From an uncultured Hyphomonadaceae bacterium (lineage in GTDB: Bacteria; Pseudomonadota; Alphaproteobacteria; Caulobacterales; Maricaulaceae), in contig CAJXPX010000013.1 in the NCBI GenBank assembly GCA_913058335.1, positions 1 through 64,000 of the forward strand: a stretch of DNA of 64,000 nt, read 5' to 3'. The first letter of the stretch is position 1. The number at the start of each line of letters is the position of its first letter. Both the position numbers and the translations under genes were made by a program. Positions 32,484 to 48,974 of the stretch are shown one piece after another. The notes below the pieces were generated by a model, which did no database searches, was not told the DNA's origin, and saw only the letters and a list, made by a program, of their open reading frames with translations.

Positions 32484-33299
32484 TTACGGTTTATCCGCCG
32501 GGTCGGACATTGCTTCCATATTGGCATCGGCTTGGCGGATAGCGGCTTCAAGGCGGTCTTCCGCCGTTTGCAGGTTCTTCTTCGGATCTTGATAAAATGC
32601 TGTCAGCTTCATAATTTGTAAAAAGCTCTTATTTAGAAAACGCCCCCAGAACTTCATCGGACGATCAAAATCGAACAACAGAATAACGCGTTCTTCATCC
32701 GTGTCATTCCAGACTTCGTGCTCATACGTGTCATCAAATACGAAAATCTCGCCCTCTTCCCAAGCTGTGATTGTGTCGTCGACGCGGATGCGGCATTTTT
32801 CCCGGTCTTTCGGTATTATCAACCCGATATGAGAGCGAAGTATCCCTTTGGTCACGCCTTTATGTGCCGGAATATGATATCCGGGGGCGAGAATAGAGAA
32901 CATAGCCGTTTGTAAATTTGGAACGCGTTCAAGGATTTCCGCTGTTTTCGGCGCTAAAGACGCATTTTTTTCCAAGCGCTCTCCAAATCCATATAAAACA
33001 AAGGTCTTCCAGTTTTGCTCTTTGGCCAGACGATATTGATCCGGAGAAATTTCCTGAAATCCTGGTATCGCCTCGCGAAATTTCAATACGTCTTTGGCCT
33101 CCGATTGGATTATTTTCCAATTATCGGTAAATTCTTTCAAGAAAGGGAAATAAGAGTTGTCCACTTTTGGTGTATCCGGAACGATGGATTGTTTGGACTG
33201 GAAAGCCGCGATCTTGCGGACGAGCTTCTTTCCGTTCTTTTTTATAAAAGCACGGCGAGGATTTGTAAGATGTTTCGGCTTGTCGATTGAATCTACCAT
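32484..33299 (-). CDS. Aspartyl/asparaginyl beta-hydroxylase (LpxO-like) domain protein
   Basis: ILAPGYHIPAHKGVTKGILRSHIGLIIP, FDDTYEHEVWNDTDEERVILLFDFDRP. Confidence 0.88.
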   Translation of the reverse strand: MVDSIDKPKHLTNPRRAFIKKNGKKLVRKIAAFQSKQSIVPDTPKVDNSYFPFLKEFTDNWKIIQSEAKDVLKFREAIPGFQEISPDQYRLAKEQNWKTFVLYGFGERLEKNASLAPKTAEILERVPNLQTAMFSILAPGYHIPAHKGVTKGILRSHIGLIIPKDREKCRIRVDDTITAWEEGEIFVFDDTYEHEVWNDTDEERVILLFDFDRPMKFWGRFLNKSFLQIMKLTAFYQDPKKNLQTAEDRLEAAIRQADANMEAMSDPADKP

Positions 33300-33311
33300 A
33301 ATGTGCGCCGC

Positions 33312-34520
33312 TTAACCCGAAACGGCCTCATCGTCCATCATGTAATTCCGTGTGACAGGCAAGGCATGCACATCCTTACTTAGCTGAATTTGGAAGTTCA
33401 TATGATTTCCGTAAAGAAACGAGAACTCACTTATAACAAGATAAAACTCCCACATCCGACAGAACCGCTCATCAAACATGGCGGCGATTTTGTCTCTATT
33501 GGCTTGAAAACGTTTCTCCCACTCCGCGAGTGTATAGGCGTAATGAAGGCGTAATATTTCGCAATCTGTCACCCACAGCTTGGCTTTTTCTATTTCAGCA
33601 AAGGTTTCCGAAAGCGCGGGCGAATAGCCGCCCGGAAATATATATTTTCTAATCCAGGCTCCGGTCGTTCCCGGACCGCCCTTCCGGCCAATGGAGTGCA
33701 CGAGGGCGACGCCGTCTTGGGTGAGTAGGCTTTTAATTTTAGAAAAATATTCCTCATAATGCGCCACGCCGACATGTTCAAACATGCCCACACTGACGAT
33801 TCGGTCAAAACTCTCGTTCAGGTCGCGGTAATCAATGAGCCTTAAATCGACTAATTCTTCGAGACCTAATGTCTTCACCCGCTCTCGTCCCAGAGCCAAT
33901 TGTTCTTTAGATAAGGTTATGCCAACAACTTTGACACCGTAATTCTGAGCCAGATAGATCGCCATGCCGCCCCATCCACAACCAATATCCAAAACAGATT
34001 GGCCGGGTTTCAGATAGAGTTTTTCTGCAATGTGCTTTTTCTTTAAACGCTGTGCTTCCTCCAAACTAATATCGGGGCGAGGCCAGTAAGCACAGCTATA
34101 TTGGAGATCCTCGTCCAGAAACAGGCGGTAGAACTCATTTGATAAGTCATAATGATGTTGAACATTTGAACGCGATGCGGATTTTTTGTTACGCTGATGA
34201 AGCTTTTTTAGTCTCTTGAGGGCGCGGTTTAAAACCTTTTGGATAGGGTGGCTACGTAAGCCCCCTCTATTATGGAGAAAGATTTTCAAAAGTCCCCTGA
34301 TACCGCCCTCTTCACAAATCAAGGTCCCTTCCATGTAAGCCTCACCGGCTTTCAGCTCCGGGTTTAGAAAAAGTGTCCGGTATAAGGATTTGTCCGTGAT
34401 CCGTATCGTGGCCTTCGGCTCGCCGCCTGACCCATGGACATGACGGTTTCCATCGGCGTCAATAATTGTGAGTTGCCCGACTTTAACAAATCGGGACATC
34501 ATAGAGTTCAGTAGCTTCAT
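33312..34520 (-). CDS. cfa: Cyclopropane-fatty-acyl-phospholipid synthase family protein
   Basis: HYDLSNEFYRLFLDEDLQYSCAYW, VLDIGCGWGGMAIYLA, GVALVHSIGRKGGP, KYIFPGGYSPAL. Confidence 0.93.
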   Translation of the reverse strand: MKLLNSMMSRFVKVGQLTIIDADGNRHVHGSGGEPKATIRITDKSLYRTLFLNPELKAGEAYMEGTLICEEGGIRGLLKIFLHNRGGLRSHPIQKVLNRALKRLKKLHQRNKKSASRSNVQHHYDLSNEFYRLFLDEDLQYSCAYWPRPDISLEEAQRLKKKHIAEKLYLKPGQSVLDIGCGWGGMAIYLAQNYGVKVVGITLSKEQLALGRERVKTLGLEELVDLRLIDYRDLNESFDRIVSVGMFEHVGVAHYEEYFSKIKSLLTQDGVALVHSIGRKGGPGTTGAWIRKYIFPGGYSPALSETFAEIEKAKLWVTDCEILRLHYAYTLAEWEKRFQANRDKIAAMFDERFCRMWEFYLVISEFSFLYGNHMNFQIQLSKDVHALPVTRNYMMDDEAVSG

Positions 34521-34582
34521 TTTATAACTTTAGATGCGAGGGAAAGTGTTTTGAACGCAACTCTTTGTGAAGTAGCGAGCTT

Positions 34583-35803
34583 CTATTCGGCCGCTTCTAG
34601 CTCTGATTCAGCAAGAGACTGATATTTTAGAAATTCCGCGATTGAATCTGCGGCCACAACCGAGGCTTTGCCGTCAAAGAAATCAAATGTTTCTTCGAAA
34701 GCAAAATTCTGGGCGGGTAAATATCTATCATGGGAGTTTTTAGCGTCTCTCACAGTTTCGATCAAATTTTCGACGCTGTTTAAAACAGGGCCAGTTGTCC
34801 AGCTCATATAGAAGGGGTTGCCGGCCCAGTCGGCGTCATGGCTGTTTAGAAAAATGGTCGGACGGCGGCGTTCCAGAAATTCATAAACCTGTGAACTGAC
34901 ATCGCCGAGATAAATATCAGCCGTGCGGGTATAAGTCATATCCACGCTTTTAGTGGATCCGAGGTCAATATGGATATTCGGCGCATCAAAGAATCGTTCC
35001 GGTAAGCTTTTCCGAAACTTCACCCGTCTGTGTTCAACAGAGGTATGAAGCTTGCGTTGAAACAACATGATATGCGGCGCAAAAATCAGATTGATATCCG
35101 GTGCATTTAAAAATGCCTCCAGAACATCCAGCCCCATATCATACCATGAAGATAGATAAGGATCAAAATGGGGGTTGTAGACGACGATAGGATTATCATT
35201 GTCGAACAGATTTATATTGGCCGGTGTGTGAGGGACAAAATCAAATTTTGGATATCCGCAAACGGCATAACTCCCTTTGCGGATTAGACCTCTTTCCAAA
35301 TGCCGCTTCTTCAGCTTCTCACCAGGAACAAGTACAAAATCAAAATCTCGGATTGATTCTTTCTCTGTCACGGAACGGTCGCCAGCGCCGTGATGGGTCA
35401 AAATAAATTTCAGGTGATCTAATCCAAATTGTGATTTTAGAATCAAAGATGTCGATTCAGGCACAACGAAAACGTCATAGTCCCGAAATATATCAATATT
35501 GTTTTTTAAAATTGAGATGCGGCGCGCCGGAGCAACGGCATTAGCAGCTTTCAACACGCCCCTATCTGCCTTTCCGACCTCAAGGTCAATAAAACGGGTT
35601 TGCTTCGAAAGCTCTGTCCCTAAACCGGATTTGACGAGTTTCTTCTGCTCCTCTGTTGACGTTAGCACATCAATATCCAGAGAAGGGTATCTTAAAAGCA
35701 ACTCCTTCAGAATCGGCGCCGTATGCGCCACCTGATGGGGAACCTCATGATTATAGATAAAACCGACTCTAAGGCTGGGAATTGCTTCTGCGAATTCTGC
35801 CAT
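34583..35803 (-). CDS. CDP-glycerol glycerophosphotransferase (TagF)-like protein
   Basis: ADIYLGDVSSQVYEFLERRRPTIFLNS resembles TagF DYSS motif; VVYNPHFDPYLSSW; HGAGDRS. Confidence 0.75.
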   Translation of the reverse strand: MAEFAEAIPSLRVGFIYNHEVPHQVAHTAPILKELLLRYPSLDIDVLTSTEEQKKLVKSGLGTELSKQTRFIDLEVGKADRGVLKAANAVAPARRISILKNNIDIFRDYDVFVVPESTSLILKSQFGLDHLKFILTHHGAGDRSVTEKESIRDFDFVLVPGEKLKKRHLERGLIRKGSYAVCGYPKFDFVPHTPANINLFDNDNPIVVYNPHFDPYLSSWYDMGLDVLEAFLNAPDINLIFAPHIMLFQRKLHTSVEHRRVKFRKSLPERFFDAPNIHIDLGSTKSVDMTYTRTADIYLGDVSSQVYEFLERRRPTIFLNSHDADWAGNPFYMSWTTGPVLNSVENLIETVRDAKNSHDRYLPAQNFAFEETFDFFDGKASVVAADSIAEFLKYQSLAESELEAAE

Positions 35804-35891
35804 AACTCTAGGATCCCCTGTGACACTTCTGTGAATACGGTTTAAAACGAATTGAGTTTCAATAAAGTTTAAATTTCATCAAGTATAATTA

Positions 35892-36626
35892 TTAAGATAA
35901 ATTTTTTAAGTCCGGATAAACAGGAATAAAGCCTTTATCGTCTTTCAACCAATATTGAATGTCAAAATCGCGTGATATTGCATATTCTTCAAATTTCTGA
36001 GATGGGTCTACCACGATTGGGACATCAACATAGTCCAATACAGGCAAGTCCGCTTTGCTGTCTGAGTAGAAATAGGTATAGGCCCCGCCTGGTGCAATAC
36101 GGGCCATGAGATTTCTCACACGGCTCAATTTTTCATCGCCGTAACAATTAGGGCTTTTAAAGTCTGATTTGAGCCCGCCTGCCTCGTCCCAATCCAGTTC
36201 AGTCGAAACAAACTCACTTATGCCTAATTTACGCGCGATAGGACTCACTACCAGATCCACTGCGGCGCTGGCTAAAACAATAAGATGCCCGTTATCCTTG
36301 TGAAACTTTAGAGCCTCCTGTCCTCCGCGCCTAAGCCCTGTCTGAACCTCACGAAGCGCAAATTCCTGCGCTATTTTAGTCAATTTACTTCTGTTGAAAC
36401 GCTGTAAGCTCCAGCGCATCATTGTTTTCTTAACCGCGCCCCGTGGGAGTTTTCCCCTTTTATATTGCCATTGAAACATTAGAGTGCTGAATAATAGAGG
36501 AAACCATAAATAAGGGCGGCCTCGAACAGTTCGCCACACAAAGCGGCCCCACGTCCCGCGTTTCGTGAGCGTGTAATCCAAATCAAATATGGCAATAATA
36601 AGAGGTTCAGATGTCTTAGCTGTCAT
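35892..36626 (-). CDS. HAD-IB family phosphatase
   Basis: IAIFDLDYTLTKRGTWGRFVWR, VLASAAVDLVV, YFYSDSKADLPVLDYVDVPIVVDP. Confidence 0.85.
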   Translation of the reverse strand: MTAKTSEPLIIAIFDLDYTLTKRGTWGRFVWRTVRGRPYLWFPLLFSTLMFQWQYKRGKLPRGAVKKTMMRWSLQRFNRSKLTKIAQEFALREVQTGLRRGGQEALKFHKDNGHLIVLASAAVDLVVSPIARKLGISEFVSTELDWDEAGGLKSDFKSPNCYGDEKLSRVRNLMARIAPGGAYTYFYSDSKADLPVLDYVDVPIVVDPSQKFEEYAISRDFDIQYWLKDDKGFIPVYPDLKNLS

Positions 36627-37989
36627 CCTGGTGCAAGCCTCTCAAAACCTGACGGGTCAGGATTACAACCAAAACCATACCGACAAAATAACCCGCGACA
36701 ACGGCCAGAGCAGAGCCGATCTCACCGAAATATTTGATTAAAATAAAGAATGAGATGACATAGACGATTAATCCCGCCGCGCGGGCATATATCGCCTTTT
36801 CCGGGCGGTTTGCCGCATAAAACACGGGAAAGAGCGGTGCGACTGCCGCAAATAGGGCGGCCCCTAGAACTAAAACGATGGCTAATGGGATAACCCCTGC
36901 ATATTCAGCTCCCAGAGTGGTTTCGATAATGAATGGCCCAATAACAGCCACGACTCCTGCGAGAAACAAGCCTACTCCGAGGGAGACCAGACTGGCGCGC
37001 GTGACCAGACGTAAAATACGCTGGCCCTCCCCTCCGCTAACGATACGGGCCAGTTCCGGATAGATGACCTGATCAAGGAGCTTTACGCCTTCGGAAAGGA
37101 GTTTCGCAATTTCTTCTGCCCATTTATAAATCGCTACAAATGCCGGACCAAAGGCCCCGCCCACAATCAGAATGGGAAGCTGGTTGACGCCCGCAGCCAG
37201 CGTTGAGTCGATATTAGACTTCCAGACAAAGGCCCATAAGCCCTCTCGAGGTTTAAAAAAGCATTCTTTAGCTTTCAGCACAGGTTTGGCGAGGTGACGT
37301 TTGAGAAGCTCGGACAAGCCCAGCAAAACTTTGAAGACGTAACCCGCAACGGAGGCAACATACCAGACGCAAAGAAATCCAATCATACCCCAGCCCATGA
37401 AATAGGCGAATATCGCGCCCAAGAGACGCACGCCAGGCATAACGATTCCCGCAAACGCCAAGCCGTTAAACTTGTCGAAAAGTCTTAAAACGCCGATAGG
37501 CGTGCCTGTAATCTGAAACAAAACAACCGTTGAATATGCTATCACCAGTGGTTTTAAGTTTTCGACATCAAACCCTGCGCCTTGCGGAGCAAACTGAGGG
37601 TAAGCGGCAACAATAAACGCGTAAAGCTCGAAGAGTAAAATGGCTCCTGCATAGGCCAGCGCGGCCGAAAGCACGTCAATTTTGATCCCAAATTTTATCA
37701 GTCCGGCTAATCGACTAGGGTCTTCATTGTGAACATCATCAGAGCCAAAGCGAATAATAGATTGCCAGCTTTGAAATGTCGCTACTTCGGCAAAAAAGAG
37801 CATGTAACCATGTAGAAAAATAATTGTCCCGAAACTGACTTGGTCATCGAGAGCATTGGCCGTGATCAAAAGCGTGGCGAGTCCCAGCACAACCCCAAAC
37901 CCTCTCGAGCCCACAAGAAGTCCGGTATTCGCCGCTATCCTCTTTCCGACCGTTTTGTTCGATTTTATATCAAGGTCAGGGCGTTTCAT
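36616..37989 (-). CDS. Polysaccharide/lipid flippase (Wzx/MATE-like)
   Basis: 12+ TM architecture; GKRIAANTGLLVGSRGFGVVLGLATLLITANALD; start at 37989 (MKRPDLD). Confidence 0.82.
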   Translation of the reverse strand: MKRPDLDIKSNKTVGKRIAANTGLLVGSRGFGVVLGLATLLITANALDDQVSFGTIIFLHGYMLFFAEVATFQSWQSIIRFGSDDVHNEDPSRLAGLIKFGIKIDVLSAALAYAGAILLFELYAFIVAAYPQFAPQGAGFDVENLKPLVIAYSTVVLFQITGTPIGVLRLFDKFNGLAFAGIVMPGVRLLGAIFAYFMGWGMIGFLCVWYVASVAGYVFKVLLGLSELLKRHLAKPVLKAKECFFKPREGLWAFVWKSNIDSTLAAGVNQLPILIVGGAFGPAFVAIYKWAEEIAKLLSEGVKLLDQVIYPELARIVSGGEGQRILRLVTRASLVSLGVGLFLAGVVAVIGPFIIETTLGAEYAGVIPLAIVLVLGAALFAAVAPLFPVFYAANRPEKAIYARAAGLIVYVISFFILIKYFGEIGSALAVVAGYFVGMVLVVILTRQVLRGLHQDDS

Positions 37990-38740
37990 TTGATAGCCCC
38001 CGCTGACTGAGAATATCGCTGACCAAACGATGATCCGACACTTTGTCAACATCAATGGCCGCTTCCGCGAAAGGCATTAAGACCGGTTTAGCTGTGATTC
38101 CAATTTTTGTTCCTGCCTCTTCAAATGCCTTACCTAATGATAGGCGGCCAAGAGCATAACGAAGGCCGAGCCCTATGCCGATTTTACGGGCTAGTTTTAA
38201 GGGCTGTTTTCTCAAATGCTGGGCATTTTTCCAAAACTCCAACGCTGCCAGACCTTTTTCATTCGCTATATAAAATAAGTTGCATCCGGACACCGCCTCA
38301 TCGGAAAACCGTAAATAGGTCCGCTTCGTATGGGGATATTCTGGCTGAATGACGTTTTCTCTTGCAAGCCCCACACAAAAATCCGCAGCTGATTTCTGTG
38401 ACTCTTTAATAAAATAGATCACCATCTCGGCGGTTAATAGAGGGTGATCCCCTGTTGTCATAATACAGGGGAGCTTGGTCTGGTTCAAAGCGATCAGAGC
38501 GCTATCTGCTGGACCAGCGCCAGATCCTGCCTGTATCCACCCGTCTCCGGCTTTCGGATATCCGGAGATCAGATAGGGGCGCGAAAGTCCGGCCTGATCG
38601 AGCGCGCGCTCTACATATTCTAGCATAGGCCGCCCTAGAAGAGGCGTTTCAACCTTGAATTCCACCTCAAACTCGGCGCAGAGAGGATCAGTTACCCCGG
38701 CTCTTTGTCCGGCTAAAACAAGTGTGTTCACCTCTGTCAT
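37976..38740 (-). CDS. MobA-like NTP transferase (candidate cytidylyltransferase)
   Basis: NTLVLAGQRAGVTDPLC...GRPMLEYVERALDQAG, CIMTTGDHPLLTAEMV; overlaps both neighbours. Confidence 0.78.
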   Translation of the reverse strand: MTEVNTLVLAGQRAGVTDPLCAEFEVEFKVETPLLGRPMLEYVERALDQAGLSRPYLISGYPKAGDGWIQAGSGAGPADSALIALNQTKLPCIMTTGDHPLLTAEMVIYFIKESQKSAADFCVGLARENVIQPEYPHTKRTYLRFSDEAVSGCNLFYIANEKGLAALEFWKNAQHLRKQPLKLARKIGIGLGLRYALGRLSLGKAFEEAGTKIGITAKPVLMPFAEAAIDVDKVSDHRLVSDILSQRGLSNETP

Positions 38741-39897
38741 GTAGTGATTTTTTTCTCGTACATTCTATAGGTTTTATAACGGGTTGCAGAAGCTTCTTCA
38801 CAAATCCCTATCATCCCGGCATTATCTTCCAATATCCAAGAGAGTTCACAATGGGTAAAGCCCTTCTCGCGTCCGGCTTCAAAAACCTTCTCGCAAAGTT
38901 GAGCTACAAGCGCCAGACCTTTACGGGTGTTTTGATGGACTTTGCGGAGCCCCATAAGCGGAATTCTGGCTTGTGTTGCGCCCGAAACTTTCAATCGCCA
39001 GACAAGTTGCGCCCAGCCAAATGGCAGAAGTTTACCGTCCAAGCCTTTTGTAAGTTCGTTCAGATCCGGAATCATCCAGATGTAAGCCGCAGGCTCATCG
39101 TCAATATATCCGACCCACAGACCTTTTTCGAAAATAAGGGGTTTGATTTCCTTGGCCATATGCTCAATTTGATCTTCACTAAAGGGTAGAAACCCCCAAT
39201 TTTCAGACCAAGCATCATTAAAAATATCCATGACCAAGTCCACTTCGCCTCGGAAATTACGCTTATCGAGATGTCGCCAGCGAATGGACTTGTTTCGCTC
39301 GGCATAAGACAGGAGTGATTGAAGGAATTTTGACCGAGGATATCCGGCGGATAATTCAGCCTGATACGCATACATATCGACCGCTTTCGTGAGGCCGAAA
39401 TTTTCACAGTAAGTTTGGTAATCCGACCGGCCATAAGGCATCATGACTGCTGGCGGCGTGTCAAATCCATCAATTAAGAGGCCGCATTCCTCATTTACAC
39501 TCCACTGAGAGGGCCCCACCATACGGCGCCGACCAAGAGTATTGAGCCATTTTTCAGCCGCTTCCAATAATTTTTGGGCGATGGTGTCGTCGGGAATACA
39601 ATCAAAATAGCCAAAAAACCCCGTCTCATCATTATAAAGGGCATCCTGCTTTTCAAGCGTAAAGGCCGCAATCCGTCCGACAACTTCTTCTCCTGAGACG
39701 GCTAGAAATAATTTTCGGTTTGTTGGGGCGCCCGGATTTTTCTCCGGACTGAGTTGTTCTTTACGTTCAAAACGCAGGGGCGCTCTCCAATGGGGATCGT
39801 TCTCGTAAAGTGAATACGGGACAGCCAAAAACCGCTTTTCATCCGCATCGGTTTCAACCGAAATAATCTTAAATGGTTCACTCACACTTATCCCCAA
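38737..39897 (-). CDS. GNAT-fold acyltransferase-like protein (candidate bacterial ceramide synthase)
   Basis: FLAVPYSLYENDPHWRAPLRFERKEQLSPEKNP, WLNTLGRRRMVGPSQWSVNEECGLLIDGFDTPPAVMMPYG; 4-bp overlap with nucleotidyltransferase. Confidence 0.7.
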   Translation of the reverse strand: MGISVSEPFKIISVETDADEKRFLAVPYSLYENDPHWRAPLRFERKEQLSPEKNPGAPTNRKLFLAVSGEEVVGRIAAFTLEKQDALYNDETGFFGYFDCIPDDTIAQKLLEAAEKWLNTLGRRRMVGPSQWSVNEECGLLIDGFDTPPAVMMPYGRSDYQTYCENFGLTKAVDMYAYQAELSAGYPRSKFLQSLLSYAERNKSIRWRHLDKRNFRGEVDLVMDIFNDAWSENWGFLPFSEDQIEHMAKEIKPLIFEKGLWVGYIDDEPAAYIWMIPDLNELTKGLDGKLLPFGWAQLVWRLKVSGATQARIPLMGLRKVHQNTRKGLALVAQLCEKVFEAGREKGFTHCELSWILEDNAGMIGICEEASATRYKTYRMYEKKITT

Positions 39898-39931
39898 CTC
39901 TCAAAAAGAGGCTATCGGGCTTTTGTTCGGC

Positions 39932-40504
39932 TTACTTCGAGAGGTCAACCAAATTGATGGTGATATCTGTGCCTGTTAAAGGCACATCAAAGCTGGTCTC
40001 CGAATATTTCGGGAGGCGCAGGGCCTTTATTTCTGGGTTATTAGACAAACCATACGGCTCTAGAGGTTTGAAATTCCATGCCTTTTTCAATCGGCGATCT
40101 CCGTCAATATCATGGTATCCCACAACGGCATAAGACCCCGGTAAAGGGACATTGATGCAGAGGTTTTGTGGTCCGTTTTCTGCAGGAACTCGAATCAGTC
40201 TTAATTTACCGCTTTTTCTAAGAAAGTTTTCTTCGCCGAACAGCTCAAGCTTCAATATGCCTACATTTGACACATTGGTGACTTTCACGCGAATCTGGAG
40301 GCCCTCCTCAACGCAATAATCCGAAGCATCGGATGGATAGAGTTCCAATCCTAGCTTTTGCCCAATCTCCGAAATTTCCTCTTCGGGTTCCTCCCCGTCA
40401 TCATCTCGACGGTTATCGGCGAATGCACTTGTCGAAGAAATCAATAATACTGTAAATATTACAAAGATTTCGGATAAAAATCTGTGAAGTAAGTTTGCTT
40501 TCAC
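39932..40504 (-). CDS. DUF2141 domain-containing exported protein
   Basis: Signal peptide; LCINVPLPGSYAVVGYHDIDGDRRLKKAWNFKPLEPYGLSNNP typical DUF2141. Confidence 0.85.
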   Translation of the reverse strand: MKANLLHRFLSEIFVIFTVLLISSTSAFADNRRDDDGEEPEEEISEIGQKLGLELYPSDASDYCVEEGLQIRVKVTNVSNVGILKLELFGEENFLRKSGKLRLIRVPAENGPQNLCINVPLPGSYAVVGYHDIDGDRRLKKAWNFKPLEPYGLSNNPEIKALRLPKYSETSFDVPLTGTDITINLVDLSK

Positions 40505-40538
40505 GGTCTGCCCTTATTAAGCCTTTAACTCATAATGT

Positions 40539-40553
40539 TTCAGCGGGGCTGAA
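40539..40553. promoter_or_regulatory. Inverted repeat in divergent promoter region
   Basis: TTCAGC-GGG-GCTGAA between divergently transcribed DUF2141 and lptF. Confidence 0.4.
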
Positions 40554-40605
40554 TACAGACTGAATATGGACAGCTTACAGGAAGAGTAAAGGTCTAACTA
40601 CAGAC

Positions 40606-41823
40606 ATGATGGGCAGGCTGAATCTATATCTATTCAAACGCGCCTCCGTAAACATCGGGGGTTTAGTGGTTTTTGCCTGCTGCGTTCTGCTTTTAGAACG
40701 TCTTTTGCGAATCTTTGAAATTGTATCAAATTCAAGTGATCCTGCGGCGGACGCCACCCGTATGATCTATAATCTTCTGCCTCATTATCTCGGCATGGCA
40801 GTCCCGATGGCGCTTTTACTGGGAACTATTATTACAATAGACAGGTTTTCCCGCTCCAGTGAACTCACAGCGGCGCTTGGCGCGGGGGTTTCGCTTTTTC
40901 ACATGACCAAGCCTTTTGTAATTTTAGGCGGCTTTTTAGCCTGCCTCACCCTATTTATTGAAGGCTATATGCAGCCCGTAGGGCGGTATAACTATCGGCA
41001 ACTCGTTAATGTCGTGAAGCAAGAGAGCTTTACCGCTGCCCTCCGTGAAGGCACATTTACGACCGTGGGAACCCGCACATTTTTCGCTGGCACAGAATTA
41101 GCGGGCGCGGCCATCGGACCCATATTTATATACGAATCAACTGAAAACAGTGCGGGAAACCAAATTGGCTTTCGGATGACAACGGCCAATGAAGGGCGGC
41201 TAATTGTGCAAGAGGCCAGTAATGACCCCGTTTTACAGCTCTCTTCCGGACGGACATATCAAATTGAGAATAACGAGCAGCTCGACGGAGATCTGAGTTT
41301 TAGTAGCTCTGACGTGACCGGAGCGGCCTCCGTTGTTGAATTTCGCGCGCGAGGGGATGATGAACGGGAGCTAACATCTGTCGAACTATTTAAGAACCGC
41401 AAAGGCACTTTTCTCGACACGTTAACAAAAGAGACAAATAATGCCGCCCTGCACCTTCGTCTTGGCAGAGCCTTTTTACTTCTTCTCATCCCTTTCATTG
41501 CCGTACCTTTCGGGTTGAATTATGGCCGAAACCCCTCCTCTGCCGGCATATTCATAGGCGTCGTCTTTTTGGTTTCATTGCAGAAGGCTTTGGAATTTGG
41601 TCAGGGTTTGGGGGCCTCCGCGAAAATTCCGCCTTGGCTGGGCATTTGGTCTGTGATTGCCGTTGTCACAGTCTTTGCAGCCTATATATTCTGGAAAAGC
41701 GCTTATAAAATGGGTCAGCCGCCCTTGACGTCCTTCGCAATGCAGGTCGCCCATTGGCAAAAACAGGTTCGAACAGCCTTTTCCCGCCTACGATCAAAAT
41801 CATCAGGAGCCAGTGGTGTTTAA
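40606..41823 (+). CDS. lptF: LPS-export permease LptF / YjgP-family protein
   Basis: MMGRLNLYLFKRASVNIGGLVVFACCVLLLERLLRIFE; YjgP topology with periplasmic domain; overlaps lptG. Confidence 0.88.
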   Translation: MMGRLNLYLFKRASVNIGGLVVFACCVLLLERLLRIFEIVSNSSDPAADATRMIYNLLPHYLGMAVPMALLLGTIITIDRFSRSSELTAALGAGVSLFHMTKPFVILGGFLACLTLFIEGYMQPVGRYNYRQLVNVVKQESFTAALREGTFTTVGTRTFFAGTELAGAAIGPIFIYESTENSAGNQIGFRMTTANEGRLIVQEASNDPVLQLSSGRTYQIENNEQLDGDLSFSSSDVTGAASVVEFRARGDDERELTSVELFKNRKGTFLDTLTKETNNAALHLRLGRAFLLLLIPFIAVPFGLNYGRNPSSAGIFIGVVFLVSLQKALEFGQGLGASAKIPPWLGIWSVIAVVTVFAAYIFWKSAYKMGQPPLTSFAMQVAHWQKQVRTAFSRLRSKSSGASGV

Positions 41824-42895
41824 GTTCGGTCTCTATTTATCAAAGACCTTTCTAATAACCTGGCTTATGACCGTGTTTGGTTTTTTGGTGCTTATTGGAT
41901 TACTCGATAGCCTGGCGAACGGCGCGGATATTGTGGCGAGCGGAGAAGGCTTCCAAGGCACATTCCGATATATGTTATTACGAGCCCCGGTTATTTTTGA
42001 TCGAATTTTTGTATTTACGCTCGTCGTGGCCATTCTTTTGGTTTTCGTTAAATTGATCCGGCAGCACGAACTTGTCGCTTTGCTTGGATTCGGAATTTCT
42101 GCGCCCAAGCAGATTTTATTGCTTGTCCCAGTTGTTTTAGGCGCCAGTCTGGTTTCAATCACTTTTATTGATATTGCTATGGCTCCGGCTGTGCGGTCCT
42201 TACAGGATTGGGGTATTGGAGAATATAAAATCAAGAACATCACGTCTGAAAACCCTCTTTGGCTTGAAGACGGCGAAGATATTGTTCGGGCTACAGAGCG
42301 CATCAGCTATACGCGCTTGGGGGATATACAAATTTTTGAACGAGGCGACACCGGAGAAGTTGAGTCTGTTTTATGGGCCCAAAGCGCAACGTATAATGAT
42401 CCGAACTGGACCTTAAACGGGGTCAGGATTTTGACCGTTACCGGCGCAAATGGCGAAAAACGAAGCGCCCAAGCAGACGCCTCCCCCCGAATATGGAAAA
42501 CCAGTCAAACCCCAAAGACCATTGCGCGTCTTGCCGCCGAGCCCCGTGATATTTCTCTCTCAGAAATGCGAAATTTCATGATGCGGGGTAATTCAGGTTC
42601 CAAACCAAGATTTGCCTATAGCTTTTGGCACGCTCATCGTCTGACACGCCCCTTGGCCGCTTTGATACTTTTGCTTTGCTGCGTCCCGCTTATGCAGCGG
42701 ACAGGTCGGGAAGACATGGGTGATAAAACCTTGATTATCGGTATTACTATGGGGTTTGTGTTCCTGATTGTGGATGGCGCCATGGCGACCTTTGCGACCT
42801 CCGGCGGTATAGGAGTCGCCACAGCTATTATCTTCCCGCTCGCTCTTTTCGGTTTGCTCGGCGCTTTCATGCTTGTTCGGACAGAGAGCCTTTAG
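41813..42895 (+). CDS. lptG: LPS-export permease LptG / YjgQ-family protein
   Basis: FGLYLSKTFLITWLMTVFGFLVLIGLLDSL; YjgQ topology. Confidence 0.88.
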   Translation: MVFKFGLYLSKTFLITWLMTVFGFLVLIGLLDSLANGADIVASGEGFQGTFRYMLLRAPVIFDRIFVFTLVVAILLVFVKLIRQHELVALLGFGISAPKQILLLVPVVLGASLVSITFIDIAMAPAVRSLQDWGIGEYKIKNITSENPLWLEDGEDIVRATERISYTRLGDIQIFERGDTGEVESVLWAQSATYNDPNWTLNGVRILTVTGANGEKRSAQADASPRIWKTSQTPKTIARLAAEPRDISLSEMRNFMMRGNSGSKPRFAYSFWHAHRLTRPLAALILLLCCVPLMQRTGREDMGDKTLIIGITMGFVFLIVDGAMATFATSGGIGVATAIIFPLALFGLLGAFMLVRTESL

Positions 42896-42904
42896 GTTGC
42901 CGCT

Positions 42905-43843
42905 ATGTCCGTTTTGGCAATTTCCAATGCAAAAGCCCGATCTGTTGCCAAACAAGGTTCCGCGCTTTCTTTGAACAAGCTCCCCGCAGGAGGCGAACAT
43001 TTTATAAGCCAAGACCGAAGCGACCTTCTTCCGCTGTTGAATAAAGCGAGAGTGGAGAAAAGAGAGCATATTTTGATTGAAGGCGGAGACGGAACCGTGC
43101 GCACGGTTATGACGGCCTTATTAAACAGTTACGGGGATGATGAACCCCTGCCCGCTATATCAATATTGCCGAGCGGAACAACCAACCAAATTGCGCGAAA
43201 TATCGGCCTTAAAGACTTCTCTGATTTGAAGGACATTCAGAAAGGCCATGTTCGTTCACACATTACTTCGCTCGTTAAAATTGATAGGATCAATCAAGAG
43301 GCAGGCCCGTCTAATCCGGTTTATGGATTTTTATTCTCTACGGGTGCCCTGCCTCATGTAAGCCGATTTGCGCAGGACAAATTAAACGGAAATGGTGTCG
43401 GCGGCGGAACGGCCGTTGTCGGCGCTGTGATTAAGGCCGTCACAGGGGATAAAGCTCGCCTCATGCCCCCGACGAAACACAAAATGAAAGCCAAACTGGG
43501 GGGAGAAACTCTTTTCAAACATAAAGGCACTGCTCTGGGCACCATAATGACGACCCTTCCCTCTCTTATGCTGGGACTTGATCCGTTTTGGGGAGAGGAA
43601 GACGCGCCCCTGCGAATGACTTGGGCGGATGGTGACAGCCGTAAATTGGGGCGAAATGTAGCTGGCTTGTGGATGGGCCGAAAACAAGATCGGGCACAGG
43701 ATGGATATTACAGTCACAATATTGACCGGTTAACCTTAAAGACAAAAGCTCCGGCGACGCTCGATGGGGATTTCCTCGAACTAAGCGGTCAAAAACTCCG
43801 AATCTCAGCCTCTCGCCCTGTCACCTTTTGGCGCGCGCGATGA
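42905..43843 (+). CDS. Diacylglycerol/sphingoid kinase-family protein (candidate ceramide kinase)
   Basis: ILIEGGDGTVRTVMTALL and ILPSGTTNQIARNIGL DGK catalytic motifs. Confidence 0.83.
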   Translation: MSVLAISNAKARSVAKQGSALSLNKLPAGGEHFISQDRSDLLPLLNKARVEKREHILIEGGDGTVRTVMTALLNSYGDDEPLPAISILPSGTTNQIARNIGLKDFSDLKDIQKGHVRSHITSLVKIDRINQEAGPSNPVYGFLFSTGALPHVSRFAQDKLNGNGVGGGTAVVGAVIKAVTGDKARLMPPTKHKMKAKLGGETLFKHKGTALGTIMTTLPSLMLGLDPFWGEEDAPLRMTWADGDSRKLGRNVAGLWMGRKQDRAQDGYYSHNIDRLTLKTKAPATLDGDFLELSGQKLRISASRPVTFWRAR

Positions 43844-44757
43844 GCGATGCGGTTTTAGACATCATCCGCTCCGAATCCTTGGAGCCCCCTACCCGAGTAA
43901 ACGATATTTTGCAGGCAATAGAGAAGAGGCATAAAGACAGGGTTCAAGCCTTTGTCTATTACGGGTCCTCTTTGAGAGAGATGAATAATCCGGAAAAAAT
44001 GCTGGATTTTTATGTATTGGTGGACAGTTACCGCAAAACTCACGGCACAGGCCCTAGGGCGTTTCTCAACCGCCTCATTCCGCCCGCTGTTTATTATATT
44101 GAGCGCAAAGATGACCAAGGCATTCTTTCGACCTGTAAATACTCTCTTTTAAGTCTGAAAGAGTTTGAACGGCGCTGTTCGGACGAGGTTTTACAATCGC
44201 AAGTTTGGGGTCGATTCTCGCAGCCCTGCATACTTCTGCGCGCCAAAAATGACGATGTTGCAGAGCGTGTATATCGCGCCCGCGCTGATGCCGTTCGGCA
44301 AATGGCTAGCCAGTCTGCGCCCTTGGTGGCGCCGTCAGCGACAGCCTCCGAAATTTGGGGGCGGGGTTTTTATGAAAGTTATCGAACCGAACTACGCCCG
44401 GAAAGTTCTGTTGGGCGGTCTCAGGAGATAGTAGAGCGTTTTTTAGATCGCTACGCCTCGCTCACTACGGCGCTATACGGGCCGCCGGATAAAACAGGGC
44501 ATTATAAATTGTCTGCGGAGACGAAAGATAAAGTCAAAGGGCTTTGGTTTTGGCGCCGCGTTCAGGGCAAACCGCTATCCGTAATCAGAGTGCTGAACAG
44601 TGCCGCGACCTTTGAAGGAGGTCTGGATTACGTCTTGAGGAAATTGAAAAACCATTCAGGGGTGGATTTCCACCCCACAGAATTTCAGCGAAGACATCCC
44701 GTTCTCACGTCTCCTGTTATGGGGTGGAAGCTCTGGCGAAAAGGGGCCTTTCGCTAA
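43840..44757 (+). CDS. Tam41/Mmp37-like nucleotidyltransferase (candidate phosphatidate/ceramide-phosphate cytidylyltransferase)
   Basis: VYYGSSLREMNNPEKMLDFYVLVDSY (GS...DxxVxVD NTase motif), STCKYSLLSLKEFERRC...VWGRFSQPCILL like Tam41 KYGV..; ATGA overlap with kinase gene. Confidence 0.65.
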   Translation: MSDAVLDIIRSESLEPPTRVNDILQAIEKRHKDRVQAFVYYGSSLREMNNPEKMLDFYVLVDSYRKTHGTGPRAFLNRLIPPAVYYIERKDDQGILSTCKYSLLSLKEFERRCSDEVLQSQVWGRFSQPCILLRAKNDDVAERVYRARADAVRQMASQSAPLVAPSATASEIWGRGFYESYRTELRPESSVGRSQEIVERFLDRYASLTTALYGPPDKTGHYKLSAETKDKVKGLWFWRRVQGKPLSVIRVLNSAATFEGGLDYVLRKLKNHSGVDFHPTEFQRRHPVLTSPVMGWKLWRKGAFR

Positions 44758-44760
44758 GGA

Positions 44761-45993
44761 TTACTCAGCAGCGAGTTTGGCCGCCATATTCTGCATCATT
44801 TCGCCCTGCGCGTTTTTCAACTCCCCAAACGCTTTGAGTATCGTATTTATATTCTCTTCAGTATGAGCCGCAGATAAGCTAATGCGGAGTAGGCTAGAGC
44901 TTTGCGGCGTTCCAGGCGGCACAGCCAAGTTTACATAAACGCCGTTTTCAATGAGCCAGTTCCATTCCATAGCCGCCACAGCCTCATTCGGGCGGCGCAC
45001 GGCAATGACCGGACTAGCTTCAGCGCAGAGATCATACCCCATTTCTTTCAATCCGGTATGAAGCTGTTCTGCGCGCTCTTTTAAATTACTCCGTAAATGA
45101 CCGCCGGTTTTAACTTTTTCAACAGCGGCGCGGGCGGCGGCAATGTTGGACGGCGTCGCAGAGGCCGTAAACATATAAGGCCGCATAATTTTGCGTGTAA
45201 TTTCAAATTCTTTATGACGTGAGGCGCAAAACCCTCCCACAGAGGCAAGGCTCTTTGAAAACGTGCCGGAGATAAAGTCAATCTTGTCGAGTACGCCCTG
45301 CTCTTCGGCAATACCGCAACCGTTCGGCCCAAAAACGCCGTAGCTATGGGCTTCATCAATGTACAGATAGCCGCCATGGCGGTGCGTCACGTCAACAAAC
45401 TCATCCACCGGGGCGATGTCCCCAAACATGGAATACATACCTTCGATAACGACCAAAGCGTTGCCGCCCTCTATCTCGCCACGTCGTTGCAAACGCTTAT
45501 CTAAATCTTCCGGTGAATTATGACGGAAACGGATGGTCGAGGCTCCAGTCAGGCGCGTCCCGTCAATGATACACGCATGGGCGTCGGCGTCCATAAAGAT
45601 AACGTCTTTATCGCCGGCCAAGCCTGCTATAGCGGCGAGGTTTGTCTGATAACCTGTTGTAAAAACAATGCAGCTAGGCATTCCAAGGTGGTCGGCCAGG
45701 GCTTTTTCAAGATCGATATGTTCTGCATAAGAGCCATTCGCGACACGAGAGCCTGTCGTCCCGGTGCCGTGGGATTCAACTGCCCTTTTCGCCGCTTCCA
45801 TACAATCTTCGTCAAATGTCAGACCAAGGTAGTTATTTGTTCCAGCCAGAAGGATCTCGCGATTGCCGATACGCCCGCGCGTGGCATCCAGAATGTCATC
45901 AAACTGCACGCCTAGGGCGTCCTGTCCGATTTTCATCATCATATCGACACGGGTTTTGAGCGGTGCGTATTTATCAAAAAGTGAAGACATCAT
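44761..45993 (-). CDS. spt: Serine palmitoyltransferase (alpha-oxoamine synthase family)
   Basis: GTNNYLGLTFD, SHGTGTTGSRVANG, DEAHSYGVFG, GTFSKSLASVGGF PLP-lysine motif; adjacent to ACP, SDR and acyl ligase. Confidence 0.85.
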   Translation of the reverse strand: MMSSLFDKYAPLKTRVDMMMKIGQDALGVQFDDILDATRGRIGNREILLAGTNNYLGLTFDEDCMEAAKRAVESHGTGTTGSRVANGSYAEHIDLEKALADHLGMPSCIVFTTGYQTNLAAIAGLAGDKDVIFMDADAHACIIDGTRLTGASTIRFRHNSPEDLDKRLQRRGEIEGGNALVVIEGMYSMFGDIAPVDEFVDVTHRHGGYLYIDEAHSYGVFGPNGCGIAEEQGVLDKIDFISGTFSKSLASVGGFCASRHKEFEITRKIMRPYMFTASATPSNIAAARAAVEKVKTGGHLRSNLKERAEQLHTGLKEMGYDLCAEASPVIAVRRPNEAVAAMEWNWLIENGVYVNLAVPPGTPQSSSLLRISLSAAHTEENINTILKAFGELKNAQGEMMQNMAAKLAAE

Positions 45994-45998
45994 ATGTC

Positions 45999-46253
45999 CT
46001 ATTCAGAAGTGAGTTCTTTAATGGCGTTAACAAGCTCTCCCACAGTCTTGATATCGCTGACCATCTCCATCGGTATAGAAATGTCATAATGATCTTCCAG
46101 GCCCATGACCAAATCGAAGACAGCCACCGAGTCGACTTCCAGATCGGACATGATCCCGCTCTCCCGATATATCGGACGATTTTGGGGGTTATAGGGTTTG
46201 AGAAGCTCGCAGACCTTTGCGAAAATTTCATCACTATTTGGCGAAGATGTCAT
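45999..46253 (-). CDS. Acyl carrier protein
   Basis: SDLEVDSVAVFDLVMGLEDHYDISIP phosphopantetheine attachment motif. Confidence 0.88.
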   Translation of the reverse strand: MTSSPNSDEIFAKVCELLKPYNPQNRPIYRESGIMSDLEVDSVAVFDLVMGLEDHYDISIPMEMVSDIKTVGELVNAIKELTSE

Positions 46254-46256
46254 ATT

Positions 46257-47165
46257 TTATCCCGGAGCATTATAGCTTTGTACGGTTTTGGCGATGGCCT
46301 CAGCCATCGGCGTTGGGTTGGAAACCAAGTCATTACTTTGCCAATGCTCATAACGGAACTCAGCGAGCTTTCCTAGACTCAAGTGCCCTATAGAAAACAG
46401 TCGCAATGTCAAAGTCGTAATCGCGGCGACGGGGTAGAGTATCATCAAAGGTACAGGAAAAGCTCTGACGGGTCTTTCGAGGGCGTCTTCTCCGTACTTC
46501 GCAAATTGAGGCATTGTCAAAGCTCTCTCGGTCGCTGGCGATACCGTCTTTCCGTCATATTTCCCTTCCAGAGCATATCCAATGAGGTTCTCGACCAAAT
46601 CTGAAACATACACCATCGCGACGGAACGGGTTTTCCAGTCATGGCCTCCCGCAACAGGGAGAAGCCCCCGTTTCATCAATTCAAAAATCGGTTTAGTGGC
46701 GTTATCTCCCGGACCAAAGACTGCCGGAGCGCGAATAATGGCTAATTTACCAGAAAACTCTTGCTTTACAGCCTCTTCCCCCAATTTCTTGGATTTGGCA
46801 TATCGGCTTAACTCCGGCGCTCTCGCCGTTTGAGAAGATAGAAGAATCAAGCGCGGAATATTAGCTATCTCGGCGGCCTTGGCGACACGGCCCGCCCCGT
46901 TAACATTCACTTCTTCGAAGTTTGACCACTTTGGGGCTTTGACCAATCCCGCCAAATGAAAAACGCAATCCGCGCCCTTTATCCAATGGGTCAAATCACT
47001 CGACAGATCACCTTCATATATAAAGAGATTTTCTTGAGCGAGGTCGTCCAAGGCCCCTGAACGCCGGACCAAGGCTTTAACCTTAAAGCCCTGCTCCAAT
47101 AAATTACGAACAAGATGTCGTCCGACAAACCCCGTTGCGCCGGTGAGCGCAATTATTCGAGGCAT
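46257..47165 (-). CDS. NAD-dependent epimerase/SDR (candidate ceramide reductase CerR)
   Basis: IALTGATGFVGRHLVRNLLEQG Rossmann; SRYAKSKKLGEE (YxxxK). Confidence 0.82.
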   Translation of the reverse strand: MPRIIALTGATGFVGRHLVRNLLEQGFKVKALVRRSGALDDLAQENLFIYEGDLSSDLTHWIKGADCVFHLAGLVKAPKWSNFEEVNVNGAGRVAKAAEIANIPRLILLSSQTARAPELSRYAKSKKLGEEAVKQEFSGKLAIIRAPAVFGPGDNATKPIFELMKRGLLPVAGGHDWKTRSVAMVYVSDLVENLIGYALEGKYDGKTVSPATERALTMPQFAKYGEDALERPVRAFPVPLMILYPVAAITTLTLRLFSIGHLSLGKLAEFRYEHWQSNDLVSNPTPMAEAIAKTVQSYNAPG

Positions 47166-47171
47166 ATCGCG

Positions 47172-48974
47172 TTAAGTCTCAGACTTAACAACACGAATCG
47201 ATTCCGCATTTTGAAGATCAATGATGGCGCCGGAGACGAATTTCTCTTTCACACGCGCCCGAGACAATTTACCGGAACTCGTCACAATCATGGTGGATTT
47301 AGGAACGAGCTGTAGCCTGACGGGGACGCCAACTTCCAACCGGATGGCCGCCGTAACAGCCTTGAAAATCTCGTCCAAGAGCTGGGGATCACGCGTCCGG
47401 CATTCGAGCAGAAGCATAATCTGCTTTTCATCTCCTGCTCCGCCAATGGCAAAAGCACAAGCCCGTCCGCAACGATGCGGCGCAGCGGCCTGAGCTGCCC
47501 ATTCAATGTCCTGTGGCCAGATGTTACGGCCATGCCAGAGAATCAGGTCTTTGGAGCGGCCCGTCACAACAAGTTGGTTATCCAGCCAATAACCGAGATC
47601 CCCCGTGTCGAGCCAGCCTTCTTTAGTGAAAGCGGCTTCTGTGGCTTGTGAGTTCCGAAAATAGCCCGGCGAGACGCTAGGGCCGCGCAAACAAATGCGT
47701 CCAACCTTAGAGCCTGTCAGGACGTTATTCTGAAAGTCACGAATTTCAATTTCGTGACCCGGCAACACAGTCCCGCAAGCCACAAATGTTCTTCGGGCCG
47801 CAGCCGGAGTAAGGTCTGTCGCCGTCACAGCTTCAGTTGTGCGCTCATACCGATCCATGTCGATTGTATGCTTTTTAAGCCCCTGCCCCAAAGGCGCAAA
47901 ACTTGCCGCAAGCGTCGTTTCGGCCAAACCGTAGCTCGGGGTAAAAGCACCTTTGTCAAAGCCCATCGGGCCGAACAATTTTTCAAATTCGGTCAGAGGT
48001 TCAGGTCGCACCATATCTCCGCCAATACCAGCCGCACGCCAACTTGAAAGGTCGAGTTCACGATCATCGCGCCAACGGCGAACGCAAAGCTCGTAACCAA
48101 AGGTCGGCGAATAAGATACAGTGCCTTTATGATCATTAATGAGTTGCAGCCATGTCATGGGGCGACGAGTGAAATCTTGAGGATCAATATAATCAATAGT
48201 CATCTGGCTCATCATGGGGGCAAGCATAAACCCGATAAGACCCATATCATGATAAAGCGGCAGCCAACTTGTGGCGCGATCCGTCTCGTTAATCTTAAGC
48301 CCGTGTTTTGTGATAGCGTGGCAATTAGCAGAAACGGAAGACTGCGTCCCGATAATGCCTTTTGGAGAGCTAGAGCTGCCGGAACTATATTGGATATAAC
48401 AAAGATCATCTTCGTTGAATTTACGAAGCTTGTTGCCTTTTGGCAATTTATCCACATCGTCAAACGTCAAAACCGGGATGGCCTGATCATTTAGGGCCGA
48501 ACTCATAATCGGCTCCATCGACTCAGGCGTAAAGAGCGCGTGGAAATCTCCTGTGTCCGCCATTCTCTGAAGCTGTCGTTCATAGCTCCCGCGGCCGCCC
48601 AAAGTAACAGGCAATGGAAGCGGAGCGGGGACGAGACCAGCATATTGGCACGCAAAAAACAGGACGGCGAATTCAGGAGTGGAAACCGCTGCCAAGCCGA
48701 TACGAGAGTTTTTAGGCGCAAATTTCACTAGACGGTAAGCCAGATCAATAGAGCGCTCTCTCAGCTCTTTATAGCTCAAAACTGTTTTCAACCGGGCTTT
48801 GCCGTCAAAATAGTTTAGACCTGTTTTTCCGTGGGCGGCATAATCAAGGCCGTCACATAAAGTTTTAAAGTCACTATGGAGTATCGGCTGTCCGCGATCT
48901 GTCGGAGTAGGAGAAAGGTCGTTTGCAGCTGGTTTGCGCACTATTGTATCTGTCATATTCTTTTCCGCTTTCAA
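47172..48974 (-). CDS. Fatty acyl-AMP ligase / acyl-CoA synthetase
   Basis: YIQYSSGSSSSPKGIIGTQSS AMP-binding; WLPLYHDMGLIGFMLAP; WLDTGDLGYW FAAL signature. Confidence 0.9.
   Translation of the reverse strand: MKAEKNMTDTIVRKPAANDLSPTPTDRGQPILHSDFKTLCDGLDYAAHGKTGLNYFDGKARLKTVLSYKELRERSIDLAYRLVKFAPKNSRIGLAAVSTPEFAVLFFACQYAGLVPAPLPLPVTLGGRGSYERQLQRMADTGDFHALFTPESMEPIMSSALNDQAIPVLTFDDVDKLPKGNKLRKFNEDDLCYIQYSSGSSSSPKGIIGTQSSVSANCHAITKHGLKINETDRATSWLPLYHDMGLIGFMLAPMMSQMTIDYIDPQDFTRRPMTWLQLINDHKGTVSYSPTFGYELCVRRWRDDRELDLSSWRAAGIGGDMVRPEPLTEFEKLFGPMGFDKGAFTPSYGLAETTLAASFAPLGQGLKKHTIDMDRYERTTEAVTATDLTPAAARRTFVACGTVLPGHEIEIRDFQNNVLTGSKVGRICLRGPSVSPGYFRNSQATEAAFTKEGWLDTGDLGYWLDNQLVVTGRSKDLILWHGRNIWPQDIEWAAQAAAPHRCGRACAFAIGGAGDEKQIMLLLECRTRDPQLLDEIFKAVTAAIRLEVGVPVRLQLVPKSTMIVTSSGKLSRARVKEKFVSGAIIDLQNAESIRVVKSET

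Follow-up and report, generated by a model that had tools for sequence, protein, structure and literature searches.

The closest described system to the locus treated here is the Caulobacter crescentus cluster CC_1168-CC_1152 (CCNA_01210-01226; PMC11324152, PMC12275187, PMC10331486), a genetically tested region in which five genes for ceramide synthesis and six for the head group lie together with LptC2/F2/G2 and a flippase (PMC11324152). Two of the Caulobacter head-group proteins, CpgA and CpgD, are required for the formation of CPG2 from this pathway, whose products also include ceramide phosphoglycerate (CPG). Here, we describe a related locus at positions 32484-48974 of a 64,000-nucleotide stretch (the window) of contig CAJXPX010000013.1, assembled from an uncultured Hyphomonadaceae bacterium with a 99.49% complete genome. 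Judged by gene identity and order, it is a real and well-conserved sphingolipid locus; its ceramide core is of the already known Caulobacter kind, and it differs in the head-group cassette that would act in the last head-group step. We consider it probable that this Caulobacter-type locus of a marine member of the Robiginitomaculaceae (Hellea/Litorimonas group) joins a constant ceramide-phosphate core and export genes to an exchangeable outer head-group cassette.

Organization of the locus and comparison with Caulobacter

All 16 open reading frames were confirmed as open at their coordinates and strands within positions 32484-48974. The genes, coordinates, strands, and three transcription units named in an earlier reading of the DNA letters (the sequence-only reading) were borne out, and only two starts were corrected: the flippase most likely begins at ATG 37989 instead of TTG 38055, and the FAAL start is better placed at ATG 48956, downstream of the earlier call. 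The locus consists of three tightly packed runs in which adjoining genes overlap or sit no more than about 100 bp apart. DUF2141 and LptF diverge across a gap of 101 bp, and the nucleotidyltransferase (NTase) and Spt genes converge across 3 bp. The features are as follows.

Minus-strand run, 32484-40504
32484-33299, minus, LpxO/OlsC-type Asp/Asn beta-hydroxylase, candidate acyl hydroxylase (PF05118; best NCBIfam model OlsC, below cut-off)
33312-34520, minus, CFA-type cyclopropane synthase (PF02353; NF053839 558 bits, below the cut-off of 600)
34583-35803, minus, TagF-like (Glyphos_transf) transferase in the place of CpgA/CpgD (PF04464, above gathering score)
35892-36626, minus, HAD-IB phosphatase, constant cassette partner (TIGR01490, above cut-off; present with every cassette type)
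36616-37989, minus, MATE/Wzx-type flippase (PF13440; fused to CpgA in most CpgA-type relatives)
37976-38740, minus, MobA-like NTP transferase in the CC_1153 position (PF12804)
38737-39897, minus, CerS-type bacterial ceramide synthase candidate, GNAT-like (P0007; homologues in spt loci)
39932-40504, minus, DUF2141 protein with a signal-peptide-like N terminus (PF09912; adjoins CerS in many spt loci)
Plus-strand run, 40606-44757
40606-41823, plus, LptF2 (PF03739; likeness to other locus copies)
41813-42895, plus, LptG2 (PF03739; second pair of the genome)
42905-43843, plus, CpgB-type ceramide kinase candidate, DAGK_cat family (PF00781; adjoins cpgC as in the Hyphomonas locus)
43828-44757, plus, CpgC-type NTase with a Tam41 fold (P0012; structure model and profile match to 6ig2)
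Minus-strand run, 44761-48956
44761-45993, minus, Spt, serine palmitoyltransferase (NF047599 equivalog; PDB 2x8u; paralogues KBL and ALAS)
45999-46253, minus, AcpR-type specialised acyl carrier protein (ACP) (PF00550; adjoins spt)
46257-47165, minus, CerR-type SDR, 3-oxo-sphinganine reductase candidate (PF01370; operon position as in Caulobacter, PMC11324152)
47172-48956, minus, AasR-type fatty-acyl-AMP/ACP ligase (FAAL) (PF00501; NF006624 672 bits, cut-off 600; first spt-operon gene in nearly all relatives)

The domains found were Asp_Arg_Hydrox, CMAS, Glyphos_transf, HAD-IB, Polysacc_synt_3/MurJ-like, NTP_transf_3, DUF2141, two LptF_LptG, DAGK_cat, Aminotran_1_2 (Spt), PP-binding, NAD-epimerase SDR, and AMP-binding/FAAL. 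P0007 and P0012 had no Pfam match of their own above cut-off (only a weak Acetyltransf_1 match for P0007) and were assigned through homologues or fold. The same runs, NTase-CerK-LptG-LptF and DUF2141-CerS-MobA with HAD adjoining the cassette, are present in Hyphomonas johnsonii (L087; H. neptunium is the species treated in PMC11324152). The gene order was found again in more than 20 relatives, which excludes a chance arrangement.

In common with the Caulobacter cluster, the locus has aasR-cerR-acpR-spt, cerS, the ceramide kinase, CpgC, LptF2/LptG2, the flippase, and the NTase in the CC_1153 position, with similar neighbor relations. Unlike in that cluster, no CpgA, CpgD, or second LptC was found, the locus has no CC_1158-type gene, and it adds the HAD-IB protein, the TagF-like transferase, the CFA protein, and the LpxO/OlsC-type hydroxylase. 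H. neptunium was likewise reported without CC_1158 (PMC11324152), and the HAD protein may stand in for it. In Hyphomonas, CpgA and CpgD occupy the place of the TagF-like gene of the window.

Replacement of CpgA and CpgD by a TagF-like protein

No CpgA orthologue was found in the whole window genome, nor one of CpgD, for which there were just partial matches at 1e-6; the published route to CPG2 is thus incomplete in this genome. The earlier proposal of an anionic head group made through Caulobacter Cpg proteins is therefore not supported as written, and the description of the locus as complete-looking was too strong; the TagF-like gene belongs to an alternative cassette. A search with PF01066 found no separate PssA in the genome; the only CDP-alcohol transferases it has are two tandem copies next to uvrC (L043 770-2088).

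In the window, the Glyphos_transf (TagF) family protein fills the slot that follows the flippase and HAD genes. PF04464 is matched by 13 of its 17 relatives. The motifs HHGAGDR, FAPH, and GDVSSQVYEF are conserved, with HHGAGDR, APH, and GDVSSQ kept in the 17. A profile built from these relatives weakly matched Cps3D, a capsule polymerase of TagF-like type (E 0.003), and TarL (E 0.054), and a single-sequence PDB search with the window protein returned only noise, so the TagF assignment rests mainly on Pfam. The family match and motifs are shared with the TagF/TarF CDP-glycerol glycerophosphotransferases; unlike those systems, the window protein lies in a Gram-negative sphingolipid locus, has no TagD partner in the genome, and is weakly similar overall. 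TagF paralogues of about 36 to 42% identity lie outside the sphingolipid locus and adjoin a second flippase of 37 to 40% identity (L146, L147, L148, L151); these sites possibly serve another phosphopolyol surface polymer.

Cassette exchange among relatives

The nearest named relatives are Litorimonas cladophorae, Hellea, and Algimonas, and the closest genomes in the tree are labelled Robiginitomaculaceae. We compared the slot in 20-kb stretches of same-genus and same-family genomes, 18 of which were used for the CpgA/CpgD counts. Across the Robiginitomaculaceae the locus is syntenic and the slot is not constant, with CpgA in 11 of the 18 genomes, TagF in 5 (the window genome, G003, G006, G007, and G012), and an ATP-grasp protein plus a second NTase in 2 (G015 and G017). 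In the CpgA-type slot, the CDP-alcohol phosphotransferase is in most cases joined to the flippase and is accompanied by HAD and a CpgD-like cytidylyltransferase. The ATP-grasp type (L036 15457-17345; L037 16151-18033) pairs a D-Ala-D-Ala-ligase-like protein with a second MobA-like NTase, a combination that suggests an amino-acid or peptide-like head group. Three loci of the sister group Robiginitomaculum (L060, L062, L066) have no decoration gene at the slot.

These gene sets never co-occur in one genome. The presence of CpgA coincides with the CpgA-type slot: all 11 such genomes have it, whereas the five TagF and two ATP-grasp genomes do not, and CpgD is confined to 10 of the same 11 (G018 is without it). 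TagF of the locus type (65 to 100% identity) is located only in the slot (5/5). HAD is kept with all cassette types and adjoins CpgA/CpgD in Hyphomonas as well.

On a tree of core proteins (Spt, FAAL, LptF, and LptG), no fewer than five changes are required by the four slot states, and the starred branches force three for TagF. On a tree of GlyA, encoded outside the locus, three states take four changes, and a grouping of the TagF genomes in one clade is rejected (approximately unbiased test, P = 4e-53); because the trait itself defined the genome group and GlyA alone is a weak species tree, the switch count is approximate. The five locus TagF copies form one clade (support 100/100), which leaves two histories: an older TagF state with CpgA regained, or movement of TagF between lineages. 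As far as these phylogenies and gene orders can tell, the cassettes are switched at the slot among relatives, a feature that had escaped the sequence-only reading.

Predicted ceramide phosphate and its proposed activation

From the gene set, FAAL, ACP, and Spt would together form 3-oxo-sphinganine, which the SDR would reduce and CerS acylate to dihydroceramide. The expected order FAAL-SDR-ACP-Spt is present with CerS in the same locus, and homologues of this CerS share a locus with spt in 50 named loci. The DAGK_cat protein, assigned on sequence and position, occupies the syntenic place of the ceramide kinase CpgB and would yield ceramide-1-phosphate. We considered an exchange of the kinase as well, suggested by its 62 to 68% identity to some relatives and about 40% to others, and dismissed it: the kinase tree joins the window with its core-tree neighbors G003, L048, and L106, so fast evolution is enough to account for the spread.

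An alignment of P0012 homologues (n = 32) gave a profile match to Tam41 (6ig2, E 5e-4), and the top five Foldseek PDB matches to its AlphaFold2 (AF2) model (predicted local distance difference test score [pLDDT] 88) were all Tam41. P0012 thus has a Tam41 fold, in agreement with the Tam41-like NTase named from sequence at the outset; the DGK-family kinase named there is supported as well. It shares this fold with the CDP-diacylglycerol (CDP-DAG) synthase Tam41, although its expected lipid would be ceramide-1-phosphate, not phosphatidic acid; we infer that P0012 is a CTP:ceramide-1-phosphate cytidylyltransferase, activating the lipid most likely as CDP-ceramide. The mechanism of CpgC was called unidentified in papers of 2025 and 2026, and CC_1161 of Caulobacter has been noted to carry a CDP-DAG-synthase-like InterPro domain (PMC11324152). 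The Tam41 fold extends that remark and gives CpgC a concrete, testable reaction.

The MobA-like NTase has a generic NTP-transferase fold (AF2 pLDDT 94), nearest to a Thermus protein and then to GlmU, CMP-Kdo, and IspD types, with no nucleotide singled out. By its syntenic position, it is a candidate counterpart of CC_1153, a CofC-like NTase. With the HAD phosphatase, it might help build the first anionic head group.

Flippase and LptF2/LptG2

The LptF and LptG genes of the locus are a second pair, as the canonical LptF/LptG are on another contig of the same genome. LptF2 is 38 to 46% identical to the Hyphomonas and Parvularcula locus copies versus 22% to its own canonical copy; LptG2 is 37 to 43% identical to those locus copies and had no blastp match to the canonical pair at E 1e-4. 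In most CpgA-type relatives (L032, L034, L038, and others), a single open frame of about 830 to 860 residues encodes flippase and CpgA together, which ties the flippase to a head-group enzyme. Sphingolipid export by LptF2/LptG2/LptC2 has been proposed for Caulobacter, which has LptC2 (PMC11324152). Here, the flippase and the dedicated LptF2/LptG2 could bring the lipid across to the outer membrane, with LptB/C/A/D probably shared with lipopolysaccharide (LPS). The flipping and possible outer-membrane export put forward in the sequence-only reading are backed at the gene level by the flippase and the dedicated pair, and not by a second LptC.

Weighing the explanations

We favor a constant core, made of the ceramide genes, kinase, Tam41-type activation, MobA-like NTase, HAD, flippase, and LptF2/LptG2, combined with a variable outer decoration set by the exchangeable cassette. 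In the TagF type, the transferase would attach one or a few phospho-polyol or phosphoglycerate units, using a nucleotide donor that we infer to come from the MobA-like NTase or some other enzyme. More tentatively, and with somewhat less than even confidence, we suggest that head groups have diversified by slot exchange, as O-antigen and capsule types have, and that the TagF type yields a teichoic-acid-like phosphopolyol ceramide, possibly oligomeric, exported via LptF2/LptG2.

Several observations weigh against this explanation. The TagF-like protein scores 24.5 bits on PF04464, barely above the gathering score of 22.1, and no TagD (CDP-glycerol synthase) was above cut-off in the genome (TIGR01518, 33 bits versus 165); with CpgD also absent, neither type of donor synthase was found for the TagF-like enzyme. 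A Caulobacter mutant of CC_1153 continues to produce CPG (PMC11324152), and this sits uneasily with a MobA-like NTase in the first head-group step. A second LptC was not found in the genome, where the single PF06835 match lies beside LptA/LptB, though a diverged copy is possible. Orthology to the CC_ genes was judged from the functions published for them, with Hyphomonas and Phenylobacterium standing in for Caulobacter sequences, and the long outgroup branches of the core tree make its deep placements unsure. The only LptC match is a 390-residue protein (L163 970-2148) whose second half looks LptA-like by eye, followed by an LptA-like protein and LptB.

An unlikely alternative, though the one that survives best, is that the plain Caulobacter pathway operates and makes CPG or CPG2, the TagF-like protein directly replacing CpgA with CDP-glycerate from an unrecognised enzyme. 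To our knowledge, CpgD is the only CDP-glycerate synthase, and it is absent here; we also know of no TagF route using CDP-glycerate, and relatives hold chemically different (ATP-grasp) cassettes at the same slot. All CPG-stage genes are nonetheless present in the locus, the MobA-like NTase could supply a donor, and the paper describing CpgD draws a parallel between the assembly of CPG2 and TagF chemistry (PMC12275187).

Less likely again is a truncated pathway ending at CPG, with the TagF-like, CFA, and hydroxylase proteins being mere neighbors that serve another lipid or surface polymer. The Robiginitomaculum loci with an empty slot and the TagF paralogues beside other flippases would agree with this, and members of the CFA and hydroxylase families are known from work on other lipids. 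However, the locus TagF clade is confined to the slot, is packed in a run with the flippase and HAD, and is mutually exclusive with CpgA.

That the Spt-like gene is a misread KBL, AONS, or ALAS, with no sphingolipid pathway, has next to nothing in its favor and is refuted as far as sequence can refute it: Spt does share the alpha-oxoamine synthase family with these enzymes, and its match to the bioF model (E 7e-89) is below that model's cut-off, whereas the NF047599 equivalog cut-off of 500 is passed with 550 bits, more than its bioF, KBL, or ALAS scores. Its closest solved structures are serine palmitoyltransferases (best match 2x8u, E 2e-108), and the specialised ACP, FAAL, and CerS adjoin it. 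Two further members of the family are encoded in the genome, one passing the cut-off for KBL and the other that for ALAS, and by these models the gene is a true serine palmitoyltransferase. The grouping with KBL/AONS named beforehand as fatal to the sequence-only reading does not occur, and its claim of encoded ceramide synthesis is supported at the gene level by spt with acpR, aasR, cerR, and cerS. The paralogue HemA (5-aminolevulinate synthase) lies beside glyA at the window edge (C13:63744-64790) and runs past the window end.

Implications of possible head-group switching

Anionic sphingolipids support the viability of Caulobacter without LPS and have been linked to polymyxin sensitivity (PMC12275187, PMC11324152). 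If head groups switch by cassette exchange, then outer membrane charge and the responses to phages and antimicrobial peptides could differ between close strains. The exchange is also a natural experiment that separates constant steps (ceramide synthesis, phosphorylation, Tam41-type activation, flipping, and LptF2/LptG2) from variable ones, and this division helps in assigning the enzymes CpgC and CC_1153. Among the papers searched, those on Litorimonas and Hellea lipids gave no sphingolipid report for these genera.

Other genes of the locus

DUF2141 adjoins CerS in 32 of 50 spt loci, among them 9 of the 12 loci without LptFG (L084, L089-L091, L093, L094, L100, L105, L108), and its protein may be a partner of ceramide synthesis; a literature search found no link between DUF2141 and sphingolipids. 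In roughly half of the genus (L031-L033, L035-L038, L155-L157), the spt operon has no CerR-type SDR. In Caulobacter, the role of ceramide acyl hydroxylase falls to a DesA-family protein (PMC11324152). By its relation to OlsC/LpxO, the hydroxylase of the window locus is a candidate for this role, and hydroxylases of the same type also lie beside Roseovarius spt loci.

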